DNA of 34,446 bases. It comes from Vicinamibacteria bacterium. Its GTDB lineage: Bacteria; Acidobacteriota; Vicinamibacteria; Fen-336; JAGNNV01. Location of the stretch: assembly GCA_017990495.1 (NCBI GenBank), contig JAGNNV010000014.1, positions 1 through 34,446 of the forward strand. Reading direction: 5' to 3'. A model generated the notes under the pieces. The model did no database searches, was not told the origin of the DNA, and worked only from the letters and a program-made list of their open reading frames with translations. Positions 10,297 to 34,446 of this stretch are shown piece by piece. Position 1 is the stretch's first letter. Each line of letters opens with the position of its first letter. The position numbers were made by a program, and so were the translations under genes.

Positions 10297-11742
10297 ATGC
10301 CCTCGCGGAAGTTGAACTCTCTTCCGGCCCACCCGGCGGAAGCCCGAGGGCCGATCTGGTGGTCGCTTGCCGAGCTTGGGTCTCTGGGTCGCAGCCCGCG
10401 GCTGCGCGGGGTCTTTCTGCTTTGGCTCGTCTGCATCGGCGTCTCCATCGCCACCGGCGCCCTGAATGTCACCCAGGGGTGGTCCGGGCTGCCCTTCACC
10501 TTCGCGGGGATGGACTTCGCGGCCACTATCTATCCGCCCTTCGTTCTCTCCGTCCTGCTCGCCTTGTGGCTGGGGCCGATCTGGGGCGCCGTGCCCATTT
10601 ATCTCGCCAACCTGGCGAGCGCGCTCGCGGGCGGACTGTCGTTCCCTCTGAGCGCGATCTTCGCGTTTGGCGGAGTGATCGAGACCCTCATGTTGTGGGG
10701 GGCGCTGGTCGTGTTGCGGGTCGATCCCGACATCCGGCGTCTCCGTGATCTCCTGTGGTTCATCGGCGCCGCGCTGGTCGCGGCGGTGACGGGGTCGCTC
10801 GCCGCTATTCTCTGGAACGCGAGCCACGGCCTCGACCCGGTGATGGCGCAGCGCGTGTGGCGCGGCTGGGTGATCGGCGACTTCATCCAGATCCTCTTCG
10901 TCGTGCTGCCGCTCCTTTACTTCGCCGGCCCCAGGGTGCGGGCCTGGTTCGACCGGCGTTTCGTCACCCCTCCCAATCGCGAGTTCAGCTACACCCACGG
11001 CGTGGGCCTGATCGTGGTGGCTTTCGCGCTGCTCGGACTGGTGGTCTTCCTCGGCGTACATCAGGCGCTTGGCTCGATTGAGCTTGCCATCGATACCCGC
11101 ACGGCCGACGGCGAGCTGCTGATTCCGAAGATGCGGGAGATCATTCTGATGATGGCCCTGCTTTCGACCGCGCTCATCGTGGCCACCGGCATGTTCTCCA
11201 CCGCGCTCGCGCGCATGGGAGAACGCCAGCGGACCGAGGCCCGGCGCGACACTCTCACCGGCTGCCTGAACCGCCGTACCTTCGACGACATCCTCGGCAA
11301 TGAAGTGGAGCGCGGGCGTCGGCTCGGCCTCGGCCTGGGCGTGCTCTTCGTCGATGTCGACCACTTCAAGTCGATCAACGATCGCCTGGGCCACGCAGCC
11401 GGCGATCAGGTACTGGTGGCGGTGGTGCGGCGGATCGAGAAGGCGCTTCGCTCCACCGACCTGCTGTTTCGTTGGGGCGGCGAGGAATTCCTGGTGCTGA
11501 TGCCGCACACCCGGCCGGAAGAAGTGAGTCTGGTGGCCGAGCGGGTGCGGGCGATGGTGGCCGAAGGGCCGATGCTCCTGGACGTGATTGACGAAGGGCT
11601 GTCCGTCACGGTGAGCGTCGGCGCGGCCGCCGCGTCCACCCTCACCGGCGATATCGCCGGCCTTCTGCCCCAGGCCGACAAGGCCTGCCTGAGTGCGAAG
11701 GCCCAGGGCCGAAATCGCGTGGTGACCGTTCCTCTCGTGTGA
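10297..11742 (+). CDS. membrane diguanylate cyclase with MASE1-like sensor
   Basis: A 481-residue inner-membrane enzyme that should make cyclic di-GMP from two GTP. The first 300 residues hold about eight hydrophobic helices with the FPLSAIFAFGGVIETLM-type pattern of MASE1 integral-membrane sensors; a loop region (about 260-280) precedes the last helix. The catalytic domain runs from RRDTLTGCLNRR (316-327) to the C-terminus. The active-site motif GGEEF is at 394-398, and the inhibitory I-site RSTD at 385-388 has the usual five-residue spacing. Both are intact, so an active, product-inhibited cyclase is predicted. It follows the alpha/beta hydrolase by 27 bases. The MASE1 assignment is by pattern only; the GGDEF assignment is firm. 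Confidence 0.93.
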   Translation: MPSRKLNSLPAHPAEARGPIWWSLAELGSLGRSPRLRGVFLLWLVCIGVSIATGALNVTQGWSGLPFTFAGMDFAATIYPPFVLSVLLALWLGPIWGAVPIYLANLASALAGGLSFPLSAIFAFGGVIETLMLWGALVVLRVDPDIRRLRDLLWFIGAALVAAVTGSLAAILWNASHGLDPVMAQRVWRGWVIGDFIQILFVVLPLLYFAGPRVRAWFDRRFVTPPNREFSYTHGVGLIVVAFALLGLVVFLGVHQALGSIELAIDTRTADGELLIPKMREIILMMALLSTALIVATGMFSTALARMGERQRTEARRDTLTGCLNRRTFDDILGNEVERGRRLGLGLGVLFVDVDHFKSINDRLGHAAGDQVLVAVVRRIEKALRSTDLLFRWGGEEFLVLMPHTRPEEVSLVAERVRAMVAEGPMLLDVIDEGLSVTVSVGAAAASTLTGDIAGLLPQADKACLSAKAQGRNRVVTVPLV

Positions 11743-11767: not shown

Positions 11768-13204
11768 TCAGAGATTGGGGAGCGAGGACCGCCGGTCGCC
11801 GAAGTGGTACTGGCCCTTGAAGTTCACGCGGTAGTCGCCGAAACCGGGCTCGCCGCCGGCCTCCCATTCCTCGTGGCCGAGGCCCATTTTCTTCATGAGG
11901 GTGATCAGCAACTCGTTGTAGGGCCGGCCGAGATCGGGGCCGTTCAGGTCGGGTCGGCCATCGGCGGACATGATGACCTTGCGCCGGGGGTTCTGATAGT
12001 TGATGAATCGGTTGGTCTCGATGCGACCCCCGCAGCCGCCCACCAGCAGAACCTGCATGTCGTTGCTGTAGTGCGGATTGCCGGTGGCGATGTTGTAGAC
12101 GCCGGATTCATTGCCCCAGAACACCAGACTGTTGTCCAGGTAGGTGGCGCCGGTCTCCGGGTCTTCGACCACGTCGAGCTGGGTCAACAACTCCGCGACC
12201 AGGCGTGAGTACCACTGGTTGATCTTCACCAGCGGGGGGAGGTTCAGGTCGTGGGTCAGGTTGTGGTGATTGGAGGTGACGCCGGTGAGCCAGGCAAACG
12301 ACCGCTGGTCCTGGGTATGGGCGAGCTGGAGCCCGTAGACCCGGCACAGGTCGGCCTTGATCGAGGAGACGATCAGGGTGGCGTGATTGCGGATGACCTC
12401 GGCAACGTCCCGCTCTTCTCGTCCACGCACGGGCTTCAAGGATGGACGTTCGAGGCCGAACGCGCGCGAGGGCACGGCCTGCTTCTCGACCTGGCGCAGG
12501 AAGGTGAGGTGGGCATCCAGGCGCTGTCGGTCATCGCTCGAGATCCGGGCGTCGGACTGGAGTCGGGCCATGTCCTCGGCCACGGAGTCGATCACCGAGG
12601 TTTTGGTGTCCTGGTCGACCGGGGTGGGAAACAGCCGCTGGAACACCACGGCCGGATCCGAGTAGGGGACGACCGGAGACACCAGTTCGCCATTCCGGGC
12701 CACGGAGAGGGGAAGGTACTTCAACTCACTCTGGCCGTCGGCCACCACGTTGAGCGAGCGCAGCCAGGGCTCGGCGGGGTAGACCGCGGGGGAGGCGGCC
12801 ATGACCTGATCGATCGTGGCCCTCAACGGATGCGCCTCCCCGAACCCGCTCATCATCTTGGTGGCGATGTGGGTGTTCTCGTTCAGCACGGCGGCGTCCA
12901 GTCCGCGGATCAGCACCATCTTCTTCCGGAAGACGTCGAACTCGCGCCCGAGGACGGGCGACAAACGCCCCCGGATTTCCGTGAGCCTCGCTTCGCGGAT
13001 GTGGGTTCCCTTCTCCATGAAGTTCACGGGCTGGGTCGGGTACCAGTTCGTGTGGTGTTGTCCGTTGGGGCTGAAGATGGCGATGAACCGACGCGGGAAG
13101 GCCACGGTTCGCGCCGAGCCGCGCGCGGCCAGCGACGGCAGGAAGGGCAGGGCGAGGGCGGCTCCGCCCGCTCCGCGAAGGAATCTGCGCCGGTGGTGGT
13201 TCAT
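11768..13204 (-). CDS. DUF1552 family protein with twin-arginine signal
   Basis: A 478-residue protein of the DUF1552 family. It starts MNHHRRRFLRGAGGAALALP, a twin-arginine (Tat) signal, so it is exported folded, probably with a cofactor or metal. The family belongs to the DUF1501/sulfatase-like set of periplasmic proteins of Planctomycetes, Acidobacteria and Verrucomicrobia whose biochemical role is not established. Features seen are FSPNGQHHTNWYP (about 44-56), a central four-helix stretch with the conserved SSIKADLCRVYGLQ, and LVFWGNESGVYNIATGNPHYSNDMQVLLVGG near the C-terminus (given in two parts of the same region). ATG 13204 overlaps the DUF1592-type gene stop by four bases (ATGA), so the two are translationally coupled and likely work together. 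Confidence 0.93.
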   Translation of the reverse strand: MNHHRRRFLRGAGGAALALPFLPSLAARGSARTVAFPRRFIAIFSPNGQHHTNWYPTQPVNFMEKGTHIREARLTEIRGRLSPVLGREFDVFRKKMVLIRGLDAAVLNENTHIATKMMSGFGEAHPLRATIDQVMAASPAVYPAEPWLRSLNVVADGQSELKYLPLSVARNGELVSPVVPYSDPAVVFQRLFPTPVDQDTKTSVIDSVAEDMARLQSDARISSDDRQRLDAHLTFLRQVEKQAVPSRAFGLERPSLKPVRGREERDVAEVIRNHATLIVSSIKADLCRVYGLQLAHTQDQRSFAWLTGVTSNHHNLTHDLNLPPLVKINQWYSRLVAELLTQLDVVEDPETGATYLDNSLVFWGNESGVYNIATGNPHYSNDMQVLLVGGCGGRIETNRFINYQNPRRKVIMSADGRPDLNGPDLGRPYNELLITLMKKMGLGHEEWEAGGEPGFGDYRVNFKGQYHFGDRRSSLPNL

Positions 13205-15285
13205 GGGAAAGGCGACCCGATTTCCCTGGTGGCGTGCAGCTTCACCACCGAGAGCAGGACATCCTGGACGCTGCCGCCTGGTTGCATCATCTTGTCGGTC
13301 ACGATCTCCAGGCGGACCATATCCTCTCGTTCGAGGGCGCGGCCGGAAACGAACTTCGTCAGCTGTTCCACGAAACAGGCATTGGCCTTAGGGCTTTCTC
13401 CCAGGAGCGCGCTGAGCGCCACCGGGCCCTTGAGCACCGGCTCTGCCCGTCGCTCGATGAACGGGTTCACCGCGGTGTCGATGTGGTGTTCGATGAAACG
13501 CGGCGGCGACGATTTCGGTACGGGAAGCTTCTCGAATCGTCGGAACCGGCCGATCGCGTCGTAGGCCTCGAGCGATGCGCCCAGGGGATTGATCAGGCGA
13601 TGGCAGCCCTGGCATATGGCGGGAGCGGTGCGCGCCTCCCACCGCTGTCTCGTGGTGAGTCGGTGATCCTTCTCCGGAGGCACCAGGGAGCCGGCGGGCA
13701 GTTGAGCGGGGTCAGGCGGTTTCAGCGGGTCGCAAAGAAACTGGCGACGAACGAAGGCGCCGCGCTTGACCAGGGAGGCTTCGTCGCGCCCGTGCGCGAG
13801 CAGGGCGACCCGGGTCAGAAGGCCCGCGCGGTTCTTCGGAGCCAGCTCGGCTCCGGGTGCGGTCCGCGCGGGGATTCCGTAGATCGCGCGGAGGGCCGGG
13901 GCGTCAGTCAGCACTTTTCGGGAGACCATGAGATCGCGATAGGCGCCGCGGTCGGTCCAGATGATCGCGTCTATGAATCGGTCCAGCTCGGCGATGGCGC
14001 TGTCGTGGAGATGCGCTCGTTCGACCGGGCCCAGGAATCCGGCGGAGTAGGCCTCGGTGGGAAGCTGCTCGTAGTGGAGCCATTGGTGGAAGAAGGTTTC
14101 CACCCATCGCCGGGCCCGGACGTCAGTCGCCATTCGCCCGATGTGCGCGGTCAGCCGAGTGTCATCGAGAAGGTCCAGGCTCCGCGCGGCGGCGAACAGC
14201 GGAGCGTCGGGCATGGTTCCCCACAGGCCGTACGACATTCTGGAGGCGCGGGCGAAGCTCTCGTCGATTCGCGATTGCGCGCAGCCCTCATCCCCGCGCA
14301 CCGGGCCGGCGCCCTGTTTGAACAGGAACGCGGGCGACATCAGCACCCGAGTGATGAGAGCCCCCAGGGCGCGGGCGGGCGCGTGGCTCCTCCGGTCCGC
14401 GTAGAAGCGGAGGAGGCTCTCCCGCTCCCGAGGTTCGAGGGGGCGTCTCCAGGCCCTCACCGCGAAATCGTCGAGGAACGACTCGATGCAGGTTCCATCC
14501 ACATTCTCCGGATCCTCGGCGCAGGGAAGAAGGTGGAGGCGCAGATCGGCGCGGGCGCTCATCTGCATGCCGATCTCGTTGGCCGCGCCGAGATATCCGC
14601 CCACATGATCGGCCGAGAGCGACCACTGGAGATTCGCGAAACCTCCCTGACGGTCGTCGTCGGGAATGCTCGCGATGAGCCCGGAGAGGGCCGGCAGTTC
14701 GTCGGCGGCCTCGTCACCGATGAGGTCCCGGAGGGTGTTCGCGAGTTCCATCTTCGACAGACGGGTCAGCGAGTCACGGCGGCGCCCCGCCTCCGCGCAA
14801 CCCGTGGGATCGAGGTCGGAGGCGGTGTGGGCGGCGACCGGCCGCGGCTTCGGCGCGACAATCCTGATCTCGTGGAGCTTCTTCGCATCAGGCTCGAGGG
14901 TGACGTCGCCTGCGGGATACTGATTGACGGTGAGGATATGGGCGATGATGTCGGCCTTCGTCTCCGCCGAGACGCCCTTGGCGCCATCGGGTGGCATCGA
15001 GGAGCGGATGAGTTCGAAGAGGTCCTTCACGGTCGAGCCGTTCCAACTGCCCACGAACCGGGGGCCGGCAAGAGCAGGGGCAAAGCCGTCACCGGCCAGA
15101 TCGGAGCCGTGACAGCCCGAACAGGCCGAACCGAAGGCCTTCTCGCCGCGTTTGGCCTGCTCCACGGTGAACACGCCGTCGAGAACGGTACGCCTCGCCG
15201 CAGGCGCTTCCGCGCGGGCGACTGCTGGAGTGAGGGGGAAGGTCCACAATCCGACCAGGACCAGAGCGGCGATGCCGCCCTTCAC
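13201..15285 (-). CDS. cytochrome c / DUF1587-1595-1592-1588-1585 protein
   Basis: A 694-residue exported haem protein of the multi-DUF planctomycete-type cytochrome family. After a signal peptide (cleavage near residue 25) comes a class-I cytochrome c domain with haem motif CSGCH at 55-59 and probable distal Met97 (SSMPPD). Next is DUF1587 with the LTRLSKMELANTLRD signature. DUF1595 follows (FAVRAWRRPLEPRERE), then DUF1592, then DUF1588. The last contains a second CQGCH motif at 558-562 followed by the typical INPLGASLEAYDAIGRFR. DUF1585 ends the protein. Reaction unknown; an oxidoreductase role in polymer or sugar metabolism has been suggested for relatives. The start is GTG 15285 behind GGGAG. 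It is the first gene of a two-gene operon with the DUF1552 partner. Confidence 0.93.
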   Translation of the reverse strand: MKGGIAALVLVGLWTFPLTPAVARAEAPAARRTVLDGVFTVEQAKRGEKAFGSACSGCHGSDLAGDGFAPALAGPRFVGSWNGSTVKDLFELIRSSMPPDGAKGVSAETKADIIAHILTVNQYPAGDVTLEPDAKKLHEIRIVAPKPRPVAAHTASDLDPTGCAEAGRRRDSLTRLSKMELANTLRDLIGDEAADELPALSGLIASIPDDDRQGGFANLQWSLSADHVGGYLGAANEIGMQMSARADLRLHLLPCAEDPENVDGTCIESFLDDFAVRAWRRPLEPRERESLLRFYADRRSHAPARALGALITRVLMSPAFLFKQGAGPVRGDEGCAQSRIDESFARASRMSYGLWGTMPDAPLFAAARSLDLLDDTRLTAHIGRMATDVRARRWVETFFHQWLHYEQLPTEAYSAGFLGPVERAHLHDSAIAELDRFIDAIIWTDRGAYRDLMVSRKVLTDAPALRAIYGIPARTAPGAELAPKNRAGLLTRVALLAHGRDEASLVKRGAFVRRQFLCDPLKPPDPAQLPAGSLVPPEKDHRLTTRQRWEARTAPAICQGCHRLINPLGASLEAYDAIGRFRRFEKLPVPKSSPPRFIEHHIDTAVNPFIERRAEPVLKGPVALSALLGESPKANACFVEQLTKFVSGRALEREDMVRLEIVTDKMMQPGGSVQDVLLSVVKLHATREIGSPFP

Positions 15286-18784: not shown

Positions 18785-20908
18785 ATGAGCGACCAGAAGG
18801 TCGAGCGACTCACCACGGTCAAGGTGCCGGCGCCGTTCGAGGCCCCTTTTCTGCGCGCGCAGGAGTATGTCCGGCGTTACTTCGCCGACCGGGTGGAGAA
18901 TCCGGATACCGCCACCATTTCCATCGCGGGCGAGCGATATGTGCTGCTGCGCGCCGCCTCGTTGTCGGTTGAGTTCATCGAGCTGGTGACGAAGCTGTAT
19001 CAGGATCAGGGGGAGACCGAGGCGCGCAGCGTGGCCCACAATCTCCTGTTCGATCTCGCCCACGCCCTCGGACGGGCCGACGCGAAGGCTTTTCAGGCCA
19101 AGATGGGCGTGACCGATCCCATCGAGCGCCTCTCCGCGGGCCCCATCCACTTCGCGTTCTCCGGCATGGCCTTCGTCGACATCTCGCCGGAATCGAGGCC
19201 GTCGCCTGACGAGGACTACTTTCTTGTCTACGACCACCCGTTCTCGTTCGAGTCGCACTCCTGGATCGCCAAGGGGAAACGGAGCGAGGTGCCGGTGTGC
19301 GTCATGAACGCCGGCTACTCCTCCGGCTGGTGTGAGGAGAGTTTCGGTCTGCGTCTCGTGGCCGTGGAGGTCGAGTGTTGCGCTTCGGGCGGTGAGCACT
19401 GCCGGTTCATCATGGCCCCGCCTTCGCGGATCGAGGGCCACCTTCAACGGTTCCCGCCTCGCCGCTCGGGCTCAGCCGAGAGCCACGCGTCGCCCGTGGT
19501 GCCGGAGTTCTTCCAGCGCAAAAGACTCGAGGCGGAACTTCGTGAGGCCAACGAGCGGCTCGAACAGCGAGTCCGTCAGCGCACCGAGGAACTGGAACTG
19601 GCGACTGAGCAACTGCGTCACCAGGCCATGCACGACGCGCTCACCGGCTTGCCCAACCGCGTGCTCCTCCTCGACCGGCTGGAGCAGGCCATCCTCAACA
19701 TGCAGCGCAAACACGAGCGCTTCTCGCTGCTGCTCCTCGACCTCAACGGATTCAAGGACGTGAACGACACCTACGGCCACCACGTGGGCGACCGCCTGCT
19801 GGCCAAGATCGGCATCAGGCTTCGCGCCCATCTGCGCGACAGCGACACCATCGCGCGCCTGGGCGGCGATGAATTCGCGGTCTTGATCGGAGGCGTGAGC
19901 AGCCTGGTGGATGCCGAGCAGGTGGCCGCCCACCTCCTGCAGTCGCTCGAGCAGGCCATCCTGGTGGAGGGGGAGCCGCTGGTCGTGGGCGGCAGCATCG
20001 GCATCGTTCACTGTCCGGCGCACGGGGCCGATCCCGCCACCCTGCTGCGGCGCGCCGATGTCGCCATGTACGCGGCCAAGTCGGACGGCGTGGGCATGCG
20101 CAGCTACGAACCCTCCATGGATCAGCACTCGCCCGCGCGCATGCAGCTCATCTCCGAGCTGCGGGGAGGCGTCGACGACAAGCATCTGGTCCTGCACTAC
20201 CAGCCCGAGGTCGCGGCCTCGGATGGGTCGGTGGTGCGGGTCGAGGCCCTGTTGCGCTGGCGGCGCGACGATGGTGTGATGCTTCCCCCGGGCGATTTCC
20301 TGCCCCTGATCGAAACCTCGGAGTTGATGGATCGCATCACGCGCTGGGTCATCGACGCGGCGGTGCGCGACTGTCGCGGGTGGCGCGAGGCGGGCTTTAC
20401 GCCGGGAGTGGCGGTGAACCTCGCTCCCCGCAACCTCCGCGATCCGGAGCTGCCGCTCGCCGTCGCCCGCGCGCTGACCCGATACGGACTGCCTGCCCAC
20501 GCCCTGACCCTCGAGGTCACGGAGAGTGGCGTGCTCGGCGATGCGGCGCTCGCGGGCGAGGTGTGCGCGGCCTTGCGGGAGAGCGGTGTTGGCCTGTCGG
20601 TCGACGACTTCGGGACCGGCTATTCGTCGTTGATGCACCTCAAACATCTGCCCTTCACCGAGCTGAAGGTCGACCGCGCTTTCACCGCGGGGATGATCAG
20701 CAACGAACACGACGCCGCGATTGTCCGCTCGATCATCGATCTGGGGCACGAGTTGGGCCGCACCATCGTGGCCGAAGGGGTTGAGAGCCAGGAGGTTCTG
20801 GACCGCCTGAAGGCGCAGGGTTGCGATCTGGTTCAGGGCTTTCACATCTCCCGCCCTCTGCCCGAGCCCGAGTTGCGTCAGTGGCTGCTCGCTCGGGCCA
20901 CCGGCTGA
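18785..20908 (+). CDS. V4R sensor - GGDEF - EAL cyclic-di-GMP enzyme
   Basis: A 707-residue soluble protein for cyclic-di-GMP turnover. Residues about 20-212 form a XylR-N/V4R-type sensor; V4R domains bind small hydrophobic or aromatic molecules in activators such as DmpR and MopR. C172, E195, C198 and C206 show the spacing I recall for the zinc site of MopR (C155, E178, C181, C189). A coiled coil (about 245-280) links to a GGDEF domain with DALTGLPNR (284-292), the I-site RDSD (351-354) and GGDEF (360-364). The EAL domain has EALLRW (487-492), E579, DDFGTGYSS (607-615), K628/D630 and the EGVE segment (664-667). All look catalytically intact, so either or both activities are possible. Start ATG 18785 has no clear ribosome site. 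TAGACT at 18766-18771 is a possible -10. Confidence 0.95.
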   Translation: MSDQKVERLTTVKVPAPFEAPFLRAQEYVRRYFADRVENPDTATISIAGERYVLLRAASLSVEFIELVTKLYQDQGETEARSVAHNLLFDLAHALGRADAKAFQAKMGVTDPIERLSAGPIHFAFSGMAFVDISPESRPSPDEDYFLVYDHPFSFESHSWIAKGKRSEVPVCVMNAGYSSGWCEESFGLRLVAVEVECCASGGEHCRFIMAPPSRIEGHLQRFPPRRSGSAESHASPVVPEFFQRKRLEAELREANERLEQRVRQRTEELELATEQLRHQAMHDALTGLPNRVLLLDRLEQAILNMQRKHERFSLLLLDLNGFKDVNDTYGHHVGDRLLAKIGIRLRAHLRDSDTIARLGGDEFAVLIGGVSSLVDAEQVAAHLLQSLEQAILVEGEPLVVGGSIGIVHCPAHGADPATLLRRADVAMYAAKSDGVGMRSYEPSMDQHSPARMQLISELRGGVDDKHLVLHYQPEVAASDGSVVRVEALLRWRRDDGVMLPPGDFLPLIETSELMDRITRWVIDAAVRDCRGWREAGFTPGVAVNLAPRNLRDPELPLAVARALTRYGLPAHALTLEVTESGVLGDAALAGEVCAALRESGVGLSVDDFGTGYSSLMHLKHLPFTELKVDRAFTAGMISNEHDAAIVRSIIDLGHELGRTIVAEGVESQEVLDRLKAQGCDLVQGFHISRPLPEPELRQWLLARATG

Positions 20909-29913: not shown

Positions 29914-30534
29914 GTGACCCCCTCGTCAGAAACCAGAGAAGCTGTCCTCGAGCGGTTCCGCGTCGAGTCGATCACCGAGGGCGCGCTTCGCGCCATCGCC
30001 CGCAAGGGGGCGTCGGCCACCATGCAGGACATCGCCGACGAGTCCGGTATCTCCAAGGGGACCTTGTATCTGTACTTCAAGGACCGCGACGAACTGCTCC
30101 ATCACGTCAGCGAGCAGGGGATCGCCCAACTGCTCGCCAAGGTCGATAGTGTCTTCGCTCGCGGGCTTTCCTTCGAGCAGACGATCCGGGAACTCGTACT
30201 CGCCAAGCTCCGCTTCTTCGATGAGCGCCGGGACCTCTACCGCCTCCATTTCGAGTTGAAGTTCCAGGGGGCCCGACGGGGGATCTGCGAAGTCAAAGCC
30301 ACAGCGCCGCCTCCCGAGAAGCAGATCTACATCGATCGCCTCACCCGATACTTCGAGGGGCACATCGAGGACCCGGCCGACGCCCCTCTGCTCGCGTTCC
30401 TCTTTTCGGAAACCGTCGCCGCGCTGCTGTTCAGACGGATCCCCGAAACCACCGGCCCGAAGCTCGAGGACGACGCCGAACTGTTGTCCGACCTCCTTCT
30501 GAACGGACTCTCAGGAAGAAGAAAGAAGTCATGA
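29914..30534 (+). CDS. TetR/AcrR-family transcriptional repressor
   Basis: A 206-residue TetR-family regulator. The DNA-binding helix-turn-helix lies at about 35-62: ATMQDIADESGISKGTLYLY, then FKDRDELL. The C-terminal alpha-helical domain (about 70-200) would bind a ligand and dimerise. It is the first gene of an operon with a TolC channel, a membrane-fusion protein and an RND pump, and overlaps the channel gene as ATGA. It therefore probably represses its own pump until a substrate binds. The start is GTG 29914, 13 bases after the palindromic operator, with no strong ribosome site. The inducer is unknown. Confidence 0.92.
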   Translation: MTPSSETREAVLERFRVESITEGALRAIARKGASATMQDIADESGISKGTLYLYFKDRDELLHHVSEQGIAQLLAKVDSVFARGLSFEQTIRELVLAKLRFFDERRDLYRLHFELKFQGARRGICEVKATAPPPEKQIYIDRLTRYFEGHIEDPADAPLLAFLFSETVAALLFRRIPETTGPKLEDDAELLSDLLLNGLSGRRKKS

Positions 30535-31835
30535 TCCATCTCATACTGGCGGCCGCCCTCTCGGGCCAGGCGCCCGTGCCCGCCGAAGCCGCACCGCCGA
30601 AGCTCACACTGCGCGCCGCTTTGGAGCGGGCTTTCGCCCTGTCGCCCGCCTCGCTCCGGGCCGTGGATGAGATCGAGGCCGCCGAGGCCCAGCGCGTGGC
30701 CACCAAGTCTCTCGTCCTGCCGCGCATCAACATCACGGGCAGCCTCATCAAGAACTCCGAGGAGGTGACCTTCGGATCGACCGAAGATTCGCGGACGATT
30801 CTTCCCGGCACCGACTGGAACGCGCGGGTGACTCTGCAGCAGCCGATCTACGCCGGTCGTCGCGAGTTTCGCCTCTACTACCAGTCGAGGGAAGGCGTGA
30901 GCCTCGCGCGCGACGGCCAGAGACTCACGCGCGACCGTCTGGCTCTGCGCGTGATCGCCGACTACGCGGCCGCGGTGCAGGCCCAGGCTCTGATCGATGT
31001 GGAGCGCCAGGCCGCGTCTCTTGCCGAAGGTCGGATCGTTCAGGCCCGGTCTCTCTTCGATGCCGGGGAAGTGACGCGCGTCGATGTGCTGCGCGCCCAG
31101 ACCGCGCACAAGGCTGCCCTGCGCCGCGTGGCGAGCGCGGAAGCCGAGGGCATTCAGGCCCGGTCGCGCCTGCGCATGGCCCTCGCCATCGACGGCGGGG
31201 ATGTCGAACTCGGCGCGCTCGACGCCACCGCCGAAATCGGTCTGCCGGTGTTGGGAGCGGAGACTCTCGAAGCGCGCGCCCTCACCCGGGCCGAGGTGAA
31301 GCAGGCCGAGACCAACGTGCGGATCGCCGACCTCGAGGTGCTCAAGCAGAAGGGCGCCTACCTGCCCGTGCTCACCGCGGACATGGGTTACATCCGCCAG
31401 AAGTCCTCGTTCCCTTCCGACAGCTATGGTTATGCCGCGCTGCGGGTGACCGTGCCGGTGTTTCAAGGCGGGGAGGTAGGAGCGCGGATCCGCATCGCTG
31501 CCGCCCGTCTTCGCCAGGCCGAGGTCACTCTCGCCGAGACCCGCCGTCAGGCGAGCGAAGATGTGCGTCAGGCGTTGGCCCTTCTCGAAGCGGCGCGGAA
31601 GACCAAGAGTCTGGCCGACGATCAGGTGAAGGCCGCCGAGGCGGAGTATGCCCAGGCCCGCGACCTGTACGAACAGCGCGAGGCCACCGCCCTCGATCTC
31701 GAAGCGGCCGAGTCCGCACTTTCCGAGGCGCGACGCGCCTTGATTCAGGGGCGCTTCGCGGTGCTTTCAGCCGAGGCTTCGGCCTGGCTCGCCGCGGGGT
31801 CGCTCGCCGATGTCGCACTGGAGAACTTCAAATGA
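30531..31835 (+). CDS. TolC-family outer membrane efflux channel
   Basis: A 434-residue outer-membrane efflux protein of the TolC family, the exit duct of a tripartite pump. A short signal peptide (about 1-20) is followed by two similar halves of long helices interrupted by beta strands. Examples are LRAVDEIEAAEAQRVATKSL and LPRINITGSL in the first half, and ALTRAEVKQAETNVRIADLE with YLPVLTADMGY in the second. A further helical run precedes the end. It has no lipobox, so it is more TolC-like than OprM-like. It starts four bases inside the TetR stop and overlaps the adaptor start in the same way, which fits a stoichiometric tripartite assembly. Length is usual. Confidence 0.93.
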   Translation: MIHLILAAALSGQAPVPAEAAPPKLTLRAALERAFALSPASLRAVDEIEAAEAQRVATKSLVLPRINITGSLIKNSEEVTFGSTEDSRTILPGTDWNARVTLQQPIYAGRREFRLYYQSREGVSLARDGQRLTRDRLALRVIADYAAAVQAQALIDVERQAASLAEGRIVQARSLFDAGEVTRVDVLRAQTAHKAALRRVASAEAEGIQARSRLRMALAIDGGDVELGALDATAEIGLPVLGAETLEARALTRAEVKQAETNVRIADLEVLKQKGAYLPVLTADMGYIRQKSSFPSDSYGYAALRVTVPVFQGGEVGARIRIAAARLRQAEVTLAETRRQASEDVRQALALLEAARKTKSLADDQVKAAEAEYAQARDLYEQREATALDLEAAESALSEARRALIQGRFAVLSAEASAWLAAGSLADVALENFK

Positions 31836-32734
31836 AAACCACTCTGACCCCCAAGATCGTCGGACGCCTCGCTGTCGGGGTTCTCACCCTCGGCGCTGGG
31901 CTTTGGTGGTCGAGCGCTCACGCGCAAACTCCCGCGCCCACCAAGGCCCCCGGGAAACCCATGCCGGGCGACGTGCGTGAACTCGCGGCCGCGGTGGAGA
32001 AGGCCGGTCAGGAATCGGCGGCGCTCTCGGCTCGCTACTCGGGCGAGTTCGTTTCCTCGCAGCGTTCGGAGGTCACCCCTCGCATCGGAGGGCGCGTGAA
32101 GGCCGTCATGGTGGACGAGGGCGCGGTGGTGAATCGCGGCGCGGCGCTGCTGGCGCTCGAGACGGACTACCTCGATCTCGACGTCAAGCAGGCCGCGGCC
32201 GAAGTGGCCCGCGCTCAGGCGGCGGTCAATGAAGCCGAGCGCGATGCCGCGCGCAAGGCCGAACTCGTGGCCAAAGGTTCCGTTTCCGAGGCCGCGAATC
32301 TGCGCTCGACCAGCATGTTCGAACAGGCGAAGGCCGCCCTTGATGGCGCGAAGGCTCGCCTGGCCCTGGCCGAGACACGTCGCAAGGATGCGGTTCTGAC
32401 CGCTCCGTTCCAGGGCGTCATCGAGCAGAGGCGGGTGAACGTGGGCGAGCGCCTGACCGAAGGCACGCCCGCTTTCCTCATCGTGCAGTTGGCCCCGCTC
32501 AAGCTCCGTTTCCGGGTGCGCGAGAGCGACCTCACTCTCGTCCGGCGCGGTCAAGGCGTCGAGGCCGAAGTCGACGCCTACCCGGGGATGAAGTTCCGGG
32601 GTGTGATCTCGGTGGCGGGGGGTGCGGTTGATCCCGCGACCCGCACCTTCCTCGCCGAGGCCCGTTTCGCCAACAGCGATCTCAAACTCCGGCCCGGCCT
32701 CTTCGCCCGCGTTCGTGTGTTGACCGGAAAGTGA
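31832..32734 (+). CDS. RND efflux periplasmic adaptor (membrane-fusion protein)
   Basis: A 300-residue periplasmic adaptor of the HlyD/AcrA family that joins an RND pump to a TolC channel. The signal peptide ends near SSAHAQ (about residue 33) with no lipobox. Order of parts: a barrel-sandwich (lipoyl-like) half with VTPRIGGRVKAVMVDEGAVV (about 77-96); a helical hairpin rich in Ala, Glu and Arg (about 115-190); and the second lipoyl half with APFQGVIEQRRVNVGERL (about 190-207). A beta-barrel domain ends the protein, with the LRPGLFARVRV segment typical of adaptors near the C-terminus. At 300 residues it is shorter than AcrA (about 397) because the proximal domain is minimal. The ATGA overlap with the TolC gene implies coupling. 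Confidence 0.93.
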   Translation: MKTTLTPKIVGRLAVGVLTLGAGLWWSSAHAQTPAPTKAPGKPMPGDVRELAAAVEKAGQESAALSARYSGEFVSSQRSEVTPRIGGRVKAVMVDEGAVVNRGAALLALETDYLDLDVKQAAAEVARAQAAVNEAERDAARKAELVAKGSVSEAANLRSTSMFEQAKAALDGAKARLALAETRRKDAVLTAPFQGVIEQRRVNVGERLTEGTPAFLIVQLAPLKLRFRVRESDLTLVRRGQGVEAEVDAYPGMKFRGVISVAGGAVDPATRTFLAEARFANSDLKLRPGLFARVRVLTGK

Positions 32735-32740
32735 TCGGCC

Positions 32741-34446
32741 ATGCAAAAACTCGCTGAAATCTGCATAGAACGGCCGGTCTTCGCGACCGTGTTGATCCTC
32801 GCCCTGGTCGTGGTGGGCATCTTCGGCTACGGGACGCTCGGCGTCGACCGCTTTCCGAACATCGACTTTCCGTTTGTCACCATCACCACACGGATGCCGG
32901 GTGCGGCGCCTCAGGAGATGGAGACCGACGTCTCGGAGAAACTCGAGGAAGCGGTCAGCTCGATCTCCGGCGTCGATGAGTTGCGGTCGTTCTCGTCCGA
33001 CGGATTCTCCGTGGTGACGGTGGGCTTCAACCTCGAAAAGGACGGCAACGTGGGCGGCCAGGAGGTGCGCGAGCGGATCGACGGCGCCACCTTCACCCTG
33101 CCTCGCGGCATCGACCCGCCGGTGGTCGAGAAGATCGCGGCCGACGCGACTCCGGTCATCGCGGTCATCCTCTCGGGAGAGGCGACGCTGCGCGAGCTGA
33201 CCGAGTTCGCGGACAAAGTGCTGAAGCGCAATCTCGGCACCGTGGCCGGGGTCGGTCAGGCCACCATCATCGGCGGCCGGGCGCGTCAGGTGCGCGTGGT
33301 CGCCAACGCAGGAGCGCTCGCGAGCCTCGGTCTGCCCGCGGCCCAGGTTGTCCAGGCCATCCAGGCCCAGAACCTGCAACTGCCCGGAGGCAAGGTCGAG
33401 CAGGGCGCGCGGGATCTCTCCCTGCGCACCTACGGCCGTGTGACCTCCATCGATCAGTTCGGGGAGATCGTGGTCGCGAACAAGGGCGGAGTCCCCGTGC
33501 GCCTCAAGGACGTGGCCCGGATCGAGGACGGCGAGGAGGACCCCGTCTCCACCGCGTTGTGGAACGGCGAACCCGCCGTCACCCTGCTCATCCGCAAGCA
33601 GTCCGGCGCCAATACCGTGAAGACGGTGGCCGCGGTGAAAGAGCGCGTGGAAGCGCTGCGCGGCCGCCTGCCCAAGGGATGGAAAGTCGAATACGCGCGC
33701 GATCAGGCCGCCTTCGTCATCACCGCCATCGCCACGGTGATGGAGCATCTGATCCTGGGGTCGATCCTCGCCGCGGGTGTGGTGTGGATGTTCCTCAAAC
33801 GTTCGCGCCCCACTCTCATCGCCGCCCTCTCGATACCCGCCTCCATCATCAGCACGTTCGGGGCCCTGCAGTACATGGGCTACACCCTCAACACCATCAC
33901 CCTGCTCGCTCTGACCCTGGTGGTGGGCATCGTGATCGACGACGCGGTGATCGTGATCGAGAACATCTTCCGCCTGCTCGAGGACAAGCGCCTGCCTCCG
34001 CGGGAAGCGGCCATCCAGGGCACGCGCGAGATTGGCCTCGCCGTTCTCGCCACCACCATGTCGCTCATCGCCGTGTTCCTGCCCATCGGTTTCATGGGCG
34101 GCATCGTGGGCCGTTTCATGGGCAGCTTCGGCATCACCATGAGCTTCGCCATCTTCATCTCCCTGATCGTGGCCTTCACCATCACCCCGATGTTGTGCTC
34201 GCGCTGGCTGAAAGTTCCAAAGGGCGACGACGTGGTGGTTCCCGTCCACGGCCTCAACGAACACGCGCCCGGAGTGTACGGGCGGGTCGAATGGGGCTAC
34301 ATGACCATGTTGCGCTGGGCCATGGGGCATCGTGCCCTCATGCTGCTGATCATCGCGTTGACCGTTGTCTCCACCGTGCCGCTCGGCCGCATCGCCAACA
34401 AGAACTTCCTCCCCACCGACGACGAAGGCCAGTTCGAGGTTCTGGT
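32741..34446 (+). CDS. RND multidrug/metabolite efflux pump, cut by the window end
   Basis: The first 568 residues of an inner-membrane RND (AcrB-like) proton-driven pump; families in this class are about 1030-1060 residues, so roughly half is shown. TM1 is at 13-32. The first large periplasmic loop has FPNIDFPFVTITTRMPGAAP (38-57). TM2-TM6 follow from about 333, and the proton-relay aspartates D400 and D401 occur in IDDAVIVIEN (TM4). The second periplasmic loop begins at FLPTDDEGQFEV near the end. The sequence favours the HAE (hydrophobic/amphiphilic export) class over the metal (HME) class. It starts six bases after the adaptor stop, completing the tripartite operon. Substrate unknown. Confidence 0.95.
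   Translation, partial: MQKLAEICIERPVFATVLILALVVVGIFGYGTLGVDRFPNIDFPFVTITTRMPGAAPQEMETDVSEKLEEAVSSISGVDELRSFSSDGFSVVTVGFNLEKDGNVGGQEVRERIDGATFTLPRGIDPPVVEKIAADATPVIAVILSGEATLRELTEFADKVLKRNLGTVAGVGQATIIGGRARQVRVVANAGALASLGLPAAQVVQAIQAQNLQLPGGKVEQGARDLSLRTYGRVTSIDQFGEIVVANKGGVPVRLKDVARIEDGEEDPVSTALWNGEPAVTLLIRKQSGANTVKTVAAVKERVEALRGRLPKGWKVEYARDQAAFVITAIATVMEHLILGSILAAGVVWMFLKRSRPTLIAALSIPASIISTFGALQYMGYTLNTITLLALTLVVGIVIDDAVIVIENIFRLLEDKRLPPREAAIQGTREIGLAVLATTMSLIAVFLPIGFMGGIVGRFMGSFGITMSFAIFISLIVAFTITPMLCSRWLKVPKGDDVVVPVHGLNEHAPGVYGRVEWGYMTMLRWAMGHRALMLLIIALTVVSTVPLGRIANKNFLPTDDEGQFEVL

Follow-up and report, generated by a model that had tools for sequence, protein, structure and literature searches.

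The closest described counterparts of the sensor analysed here belong to the sigma54 activators MopR, PoxR, and DmpR (CapR). MopR anchors the phenol hydroxyl through His106 and Trp134, packs the ring against F99, P103, V112, V114, F132, Y161, A162, Y165, Y176, and I191, and closes the pocket with S166; the zinc site of MopR-type sensors is structural (PMC10715001). His100 and Trp128 serve likewise for the phenol hydroxyl in DmpR (PMC7264223). A V4R input may also be joined to a non-AAA+ output, as in PcrS, the p-cresol sensor kinase of Aromatoleum, which keeps the phenolic His/Trp dyad and ends in a histidine kinase (PMC10715001). Unusual partners occur as well, in the form of PYP-V4R fusions, in which the input partner is a different one; the survey reporting them also covers PYP with GGDEF/EAL, and its passages on these fusions describe no V4R-GGDEF-EAL protein (PMC12826048). 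Nor do the literature passages that treat V4R together with GGDEF describe a fusion of the two. On the output side, the known counterparts are the bifunctional GGDEF-EAL enzymes MorA, MucR, and DosP, the last of which is an oxygen sensor. To our knowledge, the ligands of most cyclic-di-GMP (c-di-GMP) enzymes are not known.

The locus described here lies in a stretch of 34,446 nucleotides (hereafter the window) from a Vicinamibacteria (Acidobacteriota) MAG with a completeness of ~76%. Its product shares with the MopR group the V4R fold, a Cys-Glu-Cys-Cys tetrad that aligns without gaps, a hydrophobic pocket, and a helical linker after the sensor, but differs in key pocket residues and in its output, a GGDEF-EAL pair where those proteins carry an AAA+ activator. 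Like MorA, MucR, and DosP it retains all canonical catalytic residues; unlike them, its input is a V4R domain with a predicted zinc site. We regard the gene as real, well-formed, and conserved, and its product as a candidate V4R-gated c-di-GMP enzyme with a putatively non-phenol pocket. Judging from sequence, it is probably a soluble soil-bacterium enzyme whose making or breaking of c-di-GMP answers to a small and probably aromatic molecule.

Domain Architecture and Output

The gene and its parts occupy the following window positions.

18785..20908, + strand: whole gene, XylR_N-V4R / linker / GGDEF / EAL, 707 aa (single ATG-started ORF; Pfam)
18785..19450, + strand: sensor region, residues 1-222 (AF2 model; Foldseek matches to PoxR/MopR/DmpR)
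18899..19180, + strand: XylR_N, residues 39-132 (Pfam E 2.8e-6; 27.4 bits against a curated cut-off of 23)
19271..19414, + strand: V4R, residues 163-210 (Pfam E 4.8e-9; 36.6 bits against a curated cut-off of 31)
19502..19624, + strand: linker, residues 240-280, PEFFQRKR motif (240-247) and helix into GGDEF (motif conservation; low-confidence model)
19625..20089, + strand: GGDEF domain, residues 281-435 (Pfam E 4e-46, above the curated cut-off)
19835..19846, + strand: I-site RDSD, residues 351-354, R351xxD354 (sequence)
19862..19876, + strand: GGDEF active-site motif, G360GDEF364 (sequence)
20156..20857, + strand: EAL domain, residues 458-691 (Pfam E 3e-68, above the curated cut-off)

The sensor region consists, in order, of an N-terminal helix (16-34), the XylR_N part, the V4R part, and a final helix (213-222). 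The AAA+ sigma54-activator domain and the DNA-binding HTH are absent from the protein according to Pfam, and GGDEF-EAL stands in their place. No transmembrane segment is evident in the 707 residues: the maximum 19-residue Kyte-Doolittle mean is 1.38, lies within the GGDEF domain, and falls short of the hydrophobicity of a membrane helix. In the GGDEF domain the metal and substrate residues D319, F323, K324, N327, D328, D336, and 360-364 are intact and invariant in eight relatives. The same holds for the EAL residues E487 (of the motif E487-A-L), N545, E577, E580, D607, D608, the catalytic lysine K628, E664, and Q684, invariant in 8/8 fusions, seven of which also carry the RxxD I-site. The closest solved structures for this part are MorA (4rnh, E 2.6e-94) and then 5m3c, with DosP lower. 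Because GGDEF, I-site, and EAL residues are all present, cyclase and phosphodiesterase activities are both possible. An earlier note, made from the sequence alone, had proposed a soluble protein in which an XylR-N/V4R-like sensor of about 210 residues precedes a GGDEF-EAL pair with intact I-site and active sites instead of an AAA+ activator, and the present results bear it out on each of these points.

The host genome holds 31 GGDEF and three PilZ matches, so c-di-GMP signalling is present, and within this ~76% complete MAG the window gene is the sole V4R gene found. A promoter and terminator scan around it found nothing. Some 7 kb upstream, at 10297-11742 (+ strand), the window encodes another GGDEF protein of 481 aa with a GGEEF motif, whose hydrophobic N-terminal half looks like a multi-pass membrane domain.

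Predicted Fold, Zinc Site, and Binding Pocket

The AF2 model of the sensor, built from a 54-sequence alignment, is confident (pLDDT 90.1, pTM 0.86). Its best Foldseek match in the PDB is PoxR (E 5.9e-12, TM 0.79 on the target), followed by MopR (target TM 0.75) and DmpR, with TRAPP/Bet3 and the MJ1460 V4R protein far behind. Phenol sensors are also the top sequence matches in the PDB, MopR reaching E 3e-9, or 1e-12 with a profile. Four residues align without gaps, at an offset of +17, with the MopR zinc ligands, and their spacings are 23, 3, and 8.

19298..19300, + strand: C172, predicted zinc ligand (MopR C155; ungapped alignment)
19367..19369, + strand: E195, predicted zinc ligand (MopR E178; ungapped alignment)
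19376..19378, + strand: C198, predicted zinc ligand (MopR C181; ungapped alignment)
19400..19402, + strand: C206, predicted zinc ligand (MopR C189; ungapped alignment)

Model and alignment together thus support a V4R fold with predicted zinc-site residues of the MopR/DmpR type. The earlier note had pointed to this spacing and proposed a structural comparison with MopR and DmpR; both have turned out as it expected. It had further placed H122 at the position of the ligand-pocket histidine, and this does not stand: in three alignments MopR H106 corresponds to F123, and H122, one residue off, to MopR M105.

Applying the same +17 offset of the ungapped MopR alignment, rather than model coordinates, yields a predicted pocket of 13 residues (L116, P120, F123, A129, V131, Y149, H151, Y178, S179, W182, C183, A193, and F208), in which the following positions are of particular concern.

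19151..19153, + strand: F123, at the position of the phenol-anchoring MopR H106 (alignment)
19235..19237, + strand: H151, at the position of the phenol-anchoring MopR W134 (alignment)
19328..19333, + strand: W182-C183, at the positions of MopR Y165/S166 (alignment; pocket list from PMC10715001)

The phenol-anchoring His/Trp dyad of MopR, DmpR, and PoxR is thus absent from the window sensor, which has F123 and H151 there; A193 furthermore takes the place of MopR Y176. This weakens the predicted link of the sensor to phenols: with Phe/His in place of the hydroxyl-anchoring pair, phenol is probably not what it binds.

A Widespread Phe/His Sensor Subfamily

A scan of 84,980 species genomes with peptide patterns recovered at least 270 loci encoding relatives of the window sensor, the best 80 of which show 54-89% identity over ~215 residues. 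The closest named relative, at 89% sensor identity, comes from a Vicinamibacteria (Acidobacteriota) MAG; the sensor of the isolate Dokdonella fugitiva is 81% identical. The relatives are spread over Acidobacteriota, Pseudomonadota (Dokdonella, Rudaea), Myxococcota (Nannocystis), Desulfobacterota, Gemmatimonadota, Planctomycetota, Bacteroidota (Chitinophaga), ANME-type archaea, and other groups, and a few per cent of the genomes of sampled groups carry a member. Its members score E < ~1e-64, as against mostly 1e-18 to 1e-10 for other V4R matches.

Conservation over 86 sensors averages 97.7% at the 13 predicted pocket positions, against 71.6% over all columns, and 12 of the 13 reach at least 97%, though the patterns used to find the loci overlap residues 149-156 and 171-178 and inflate conservation there. 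The result was upheld in a sample found by profile and protein search without patterns. In that sample, F123 and H151 are kept in 35 of the 36 members above 190 bits (the exception, L108, has lost both), whereas MopR and the alignable V4R proteins below 65 bits (L007, L008, L012, L121, and L122) keep His/Trp. C183 is invariant in the pattern set (86/86), and is T or V in outer members of the profile-found sample. The zinc tetrad is retained in 85-86 of the 86 sensors and, in the profile and protein-search sample, is common to Phe/His and phenol-type sensors; since both pocket types carry it, the ligand cannot be told from the zinc site. F123/H151 versus His/Trp, by comparison of aligned residues, separates a Phe/His subfamily from phenol-type sensors, a simple rule to tell apart sensor types that annotation by Pfam name conflates. 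On this evidence the window sensor belongs to a discrete, widespread Phe/His subfamily, here recognised as new.

The outputs attached to the 86 sensors are varied: 36 are histidine kinases, many of them hybrid, 25 LuxR-type HTH proteins, eight GGDEF-EAL and one GGDEF-only, with 16 truncated or other, so GGDEF-EAL is in the minority. Two further GGDEF-EAL loci, L139 (from a genome of the Nannocystis phylum, Myxococcota group) and L146, were found later beyond this set. Across histidine kinase, LuxR-HTH, and GGDEF-EAL members the post-sensor motif PEFFxRKRxE is kept; the long linker helix (241-287) is a hint from a poor full-length AF2 model (eight sequences, pLDDT 64) whose sensor part is unreliable. 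In the sensor tree, the window protein, its congener, and Rhodanobacteraceae GGDEF-EAL proteins are grouped with 100/100 support, and a second GGDEF-EAL group, of Thermoanaerobaculia type, lies nearby. A PAS domain separates linker from GGDEF in the tree's other GGDEF-EAL relatives but is missing in the window protein and its congener.

The pocket is near-identical between LuxR-fused and GGDEF-EAL members: the window protein has the LuxR majority residue at 12 of 13 positions, and the remaining one, A193, is A in 10/25 and T in 15/25 LuxR members. So near-invariant a pocket would imply one ligand class common to most members, whatever their output. The combination of V4R with GGDEF-EAL joins known parts; the widespread Phe/His subfamily with its probably shared ligand is the more interesting result. 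One sensor, its pocket hardly changing, serves transcriptional, kinase, and c-di-GMP outputs across many phyla, so a ligand identified once would supply the signal for hundreds of proteins.

Some members stand apart in their setting. L110, L111 (G418), and L115 (G329) are stand-alone Phe/His-type V4R proteins of ~230 aa with no output domain, and L111 lies near genes resembling, by eye, acyl-CoA dehydrogenase, thiolase, and B12-mutase. The sensor of L041 (3194-6485), from a Methanophagales (ANME-1) MAG, has a PocR-PAS-histidine kinase and a DUF169 protein as neighbours; PocR, too, is a domain proposed to sense small molecules.

Gene Neighbourhoods and the Probable Ligand

Neither the window gene nor its GGDEF-EAL relatives have conserved neighbours that we could find, and no aromatic-degradation genes were recognised beside them. 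When six window neighbours (an M61 peptidase, a cytochrome-like protein, two unknown proteins, a LuxR-type protein, and a haem-binding protein) were compared with all fetched loci of relatives, only a short HTH match in L024 resulted; an operon context for the window gene was therefore rejected.

The sensor-LuxR genes of Desulfobacterota are placed differently. They precede SerA (phosphoglycerate dehydrogenase) and/or TrpB2, sometimes with SerC (phosphoserine aminotransferase) and IorA; on the same strand and within 3 kb we count SerA at 20 loci, TrpB2 at 22, and SerC at 10, with identities confirmed by NCBIfam in representative loci. IorA is also found in the L029 sensor-LuxR neighbourhood (NCBIfam) and lies divergent from L058, a hybrid histidine kinase member within the window's own 17-row clade. 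SerA and SerC make O-phosphoserine. TrpB2 has been described as indole-scavenging (PMC2700814) and, in a passage citing Busch 2014, as O-phosphoserine dependent (PMC11917138). The neighbourhood thus reads as indole-to-tryptophan, and by association it would suggest an indole-like or aromatic-amino-acid-derived ligand. Indole or another such compound is our best current guess for the subfamily, drawn from the LuxR members. The TrpB2 linkage is confined to one clade, and 12 further regions, mostly myxobacterial, with Rhodanobacteraceae included, have no TrpB2, SerA, SerC, or IorA beside the sensor.

No TrpB2, SerA, or SerC gene neighbours the sensor gene within the window. TrpB2 and IorA are likewise missing above cut-off from the genomes of four GGDEF-EAL carriers; the window's own 76%-complete MAG gave only below-cut-off matches, and the 93%-complete congener none above cut-off. 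In these carriers the signal would consequently come from outside the indole-to-tryptophan pathway, and, their neighbours not being conserved either, the ligand guess comes from differently wired members in other phyla.

In other respects the neighbourhoods offer a few observations. In 17 loci, L028 (5349-5633) and its relatives encode a Cys-rich protein of ~95-110 aa (CPRLGH..YC....PCFK..DCW) with no NCBIfam or Pfam match, in sensor-LuxR neighbourhoods. Molybdenum-hydroxylase-type genes, possibly for aromatic hydroxylation, lie near L023 (234-2639), L029 (2-2284), and L139 (11312-14999), identified by NCBIfam/Pfam in L029 and by eye in L023 and L139.

Proposed Mechanism and Alternatives

Taken as a whole, the protein is likely a soluble, one-protein, ligand-gated c-di-GMP enzyme with a V4R sensor whose ligand is probably not phenol, and its predicted anatomy is most reasonably read as tying c-di-GMP to a small hydrophobic metabolite. 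Residues 1-222 would form a zinc-stabilised sensor of the MopR/DmpR type, dimeric by analogy with those proteins. The 13-residue predicted pocket would take up a small hydrophobic ligand from the cytosol, probably an aromatic one, and binding would shift the helix at the C-terminal end of the sensor; the PEFFQRKR-helical linker may then relay this shift, much as phenol moves the B-linker of DmpR, and so change the relative activities of GGDEF (cyclase) and EAL (phosphodiesterase).

Since its fold and zinc tetrad are as in MopR and its own best PDB sequence matches are phenol sensors, the domain might instead bind phenols or cresols like MopR, DmpR, and PoxR and tune c-di-GMP with them. We hold this to be very unlikely, given the F123/H151 replacement of a dyad kept as His/Trp in MopR and the five low-scoring V4R proteins, the W182 and A193 found for MopR Y165 and Y176, and, in the surroundings of this gene and of its GGDEF-EAL relatives, the lack of recognisable aromatic-degradation genes. 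A sensor of redox state, metal, or thiols, its C172/C183/C198/C199/C206 cluster responding to oxidants or zinc availability and not to an organic ligand, would accord with the invariant C183 of the pattern set and with MsvR, a V4R-containing archaeal regulator described as redox-sensitive via cysteines (PMC3729527). It is nevertheless improbable: zinc has a structural role in sensors of the MopR type, C183 gives way to T or V in outer members, and the conserved hydrophobic pocket would go unexplained. Sensing through C199 was rejected, as this residue is not conserved. That the V4R part is degenerate and only dimerises the enzyme, expression setting c-di-GMP turnover, would suit the lack of a conserved operon and the missing PAS domain of the window protein and congener, yet a passive dimeriser would not be expected to keep its pocket almost perfectly over such deep divergence, and we give this scenario very little credence.

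More specific than the ligand-gated enzyme preferred above is a receptor for indole or tryptophan catabolites that would act on TrpB2/SerA/SerC operons in Desulfobacterota, and on c-di-GMP in Acidobacteriota, Rhodanobacteraceae, and the Myxococcota-group genome. The SerA, TrpB2, and SerC loci beside sensor-LuxR genes, the fit of TrpB2 biochemistry with SerA plus SerC, and the near-identical LuxR and GGDEF-EAL pockets all speak for it; against it are the restriction of the linkage to one clade, the 12 contexts and four carrier genomes described above, the T of 15/25 LuxR members at the A193 position, and the chance that the product or another substrate is the signal. On balance we find it doubtful. 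Extended to a cross-phylum, Phe/His-marked module that receives indole or a related catabolite of aromatic amino acids, with transcription factors, histidine kinases, and c-di-GMP synthesis or degradation as outputs, the idea is speculative and rather unlikely; if true, it would provide a defined protein receptor joining indole-type signals to the biofilm and motility messenger.

Other Genes of the Window

Of the adjacent genes at 11768-15285 (- strand), one encodes a protein of 478 aa that has a Tat-like start (MNHHRRRFLRGAGG), the other a protein of 694 aa, where a CxxCH cytochrome-c motif lies close to the N-terminus. At 29914-34444 (+ strand), a TetR regulator and an outer-membrane efflux protein (Pfam) are followed by a probable periplasmic adaptor and the start of an RND-type pump (by eye); running in one direction, these genes resemble an efflux operon that is truncated where the window stops.
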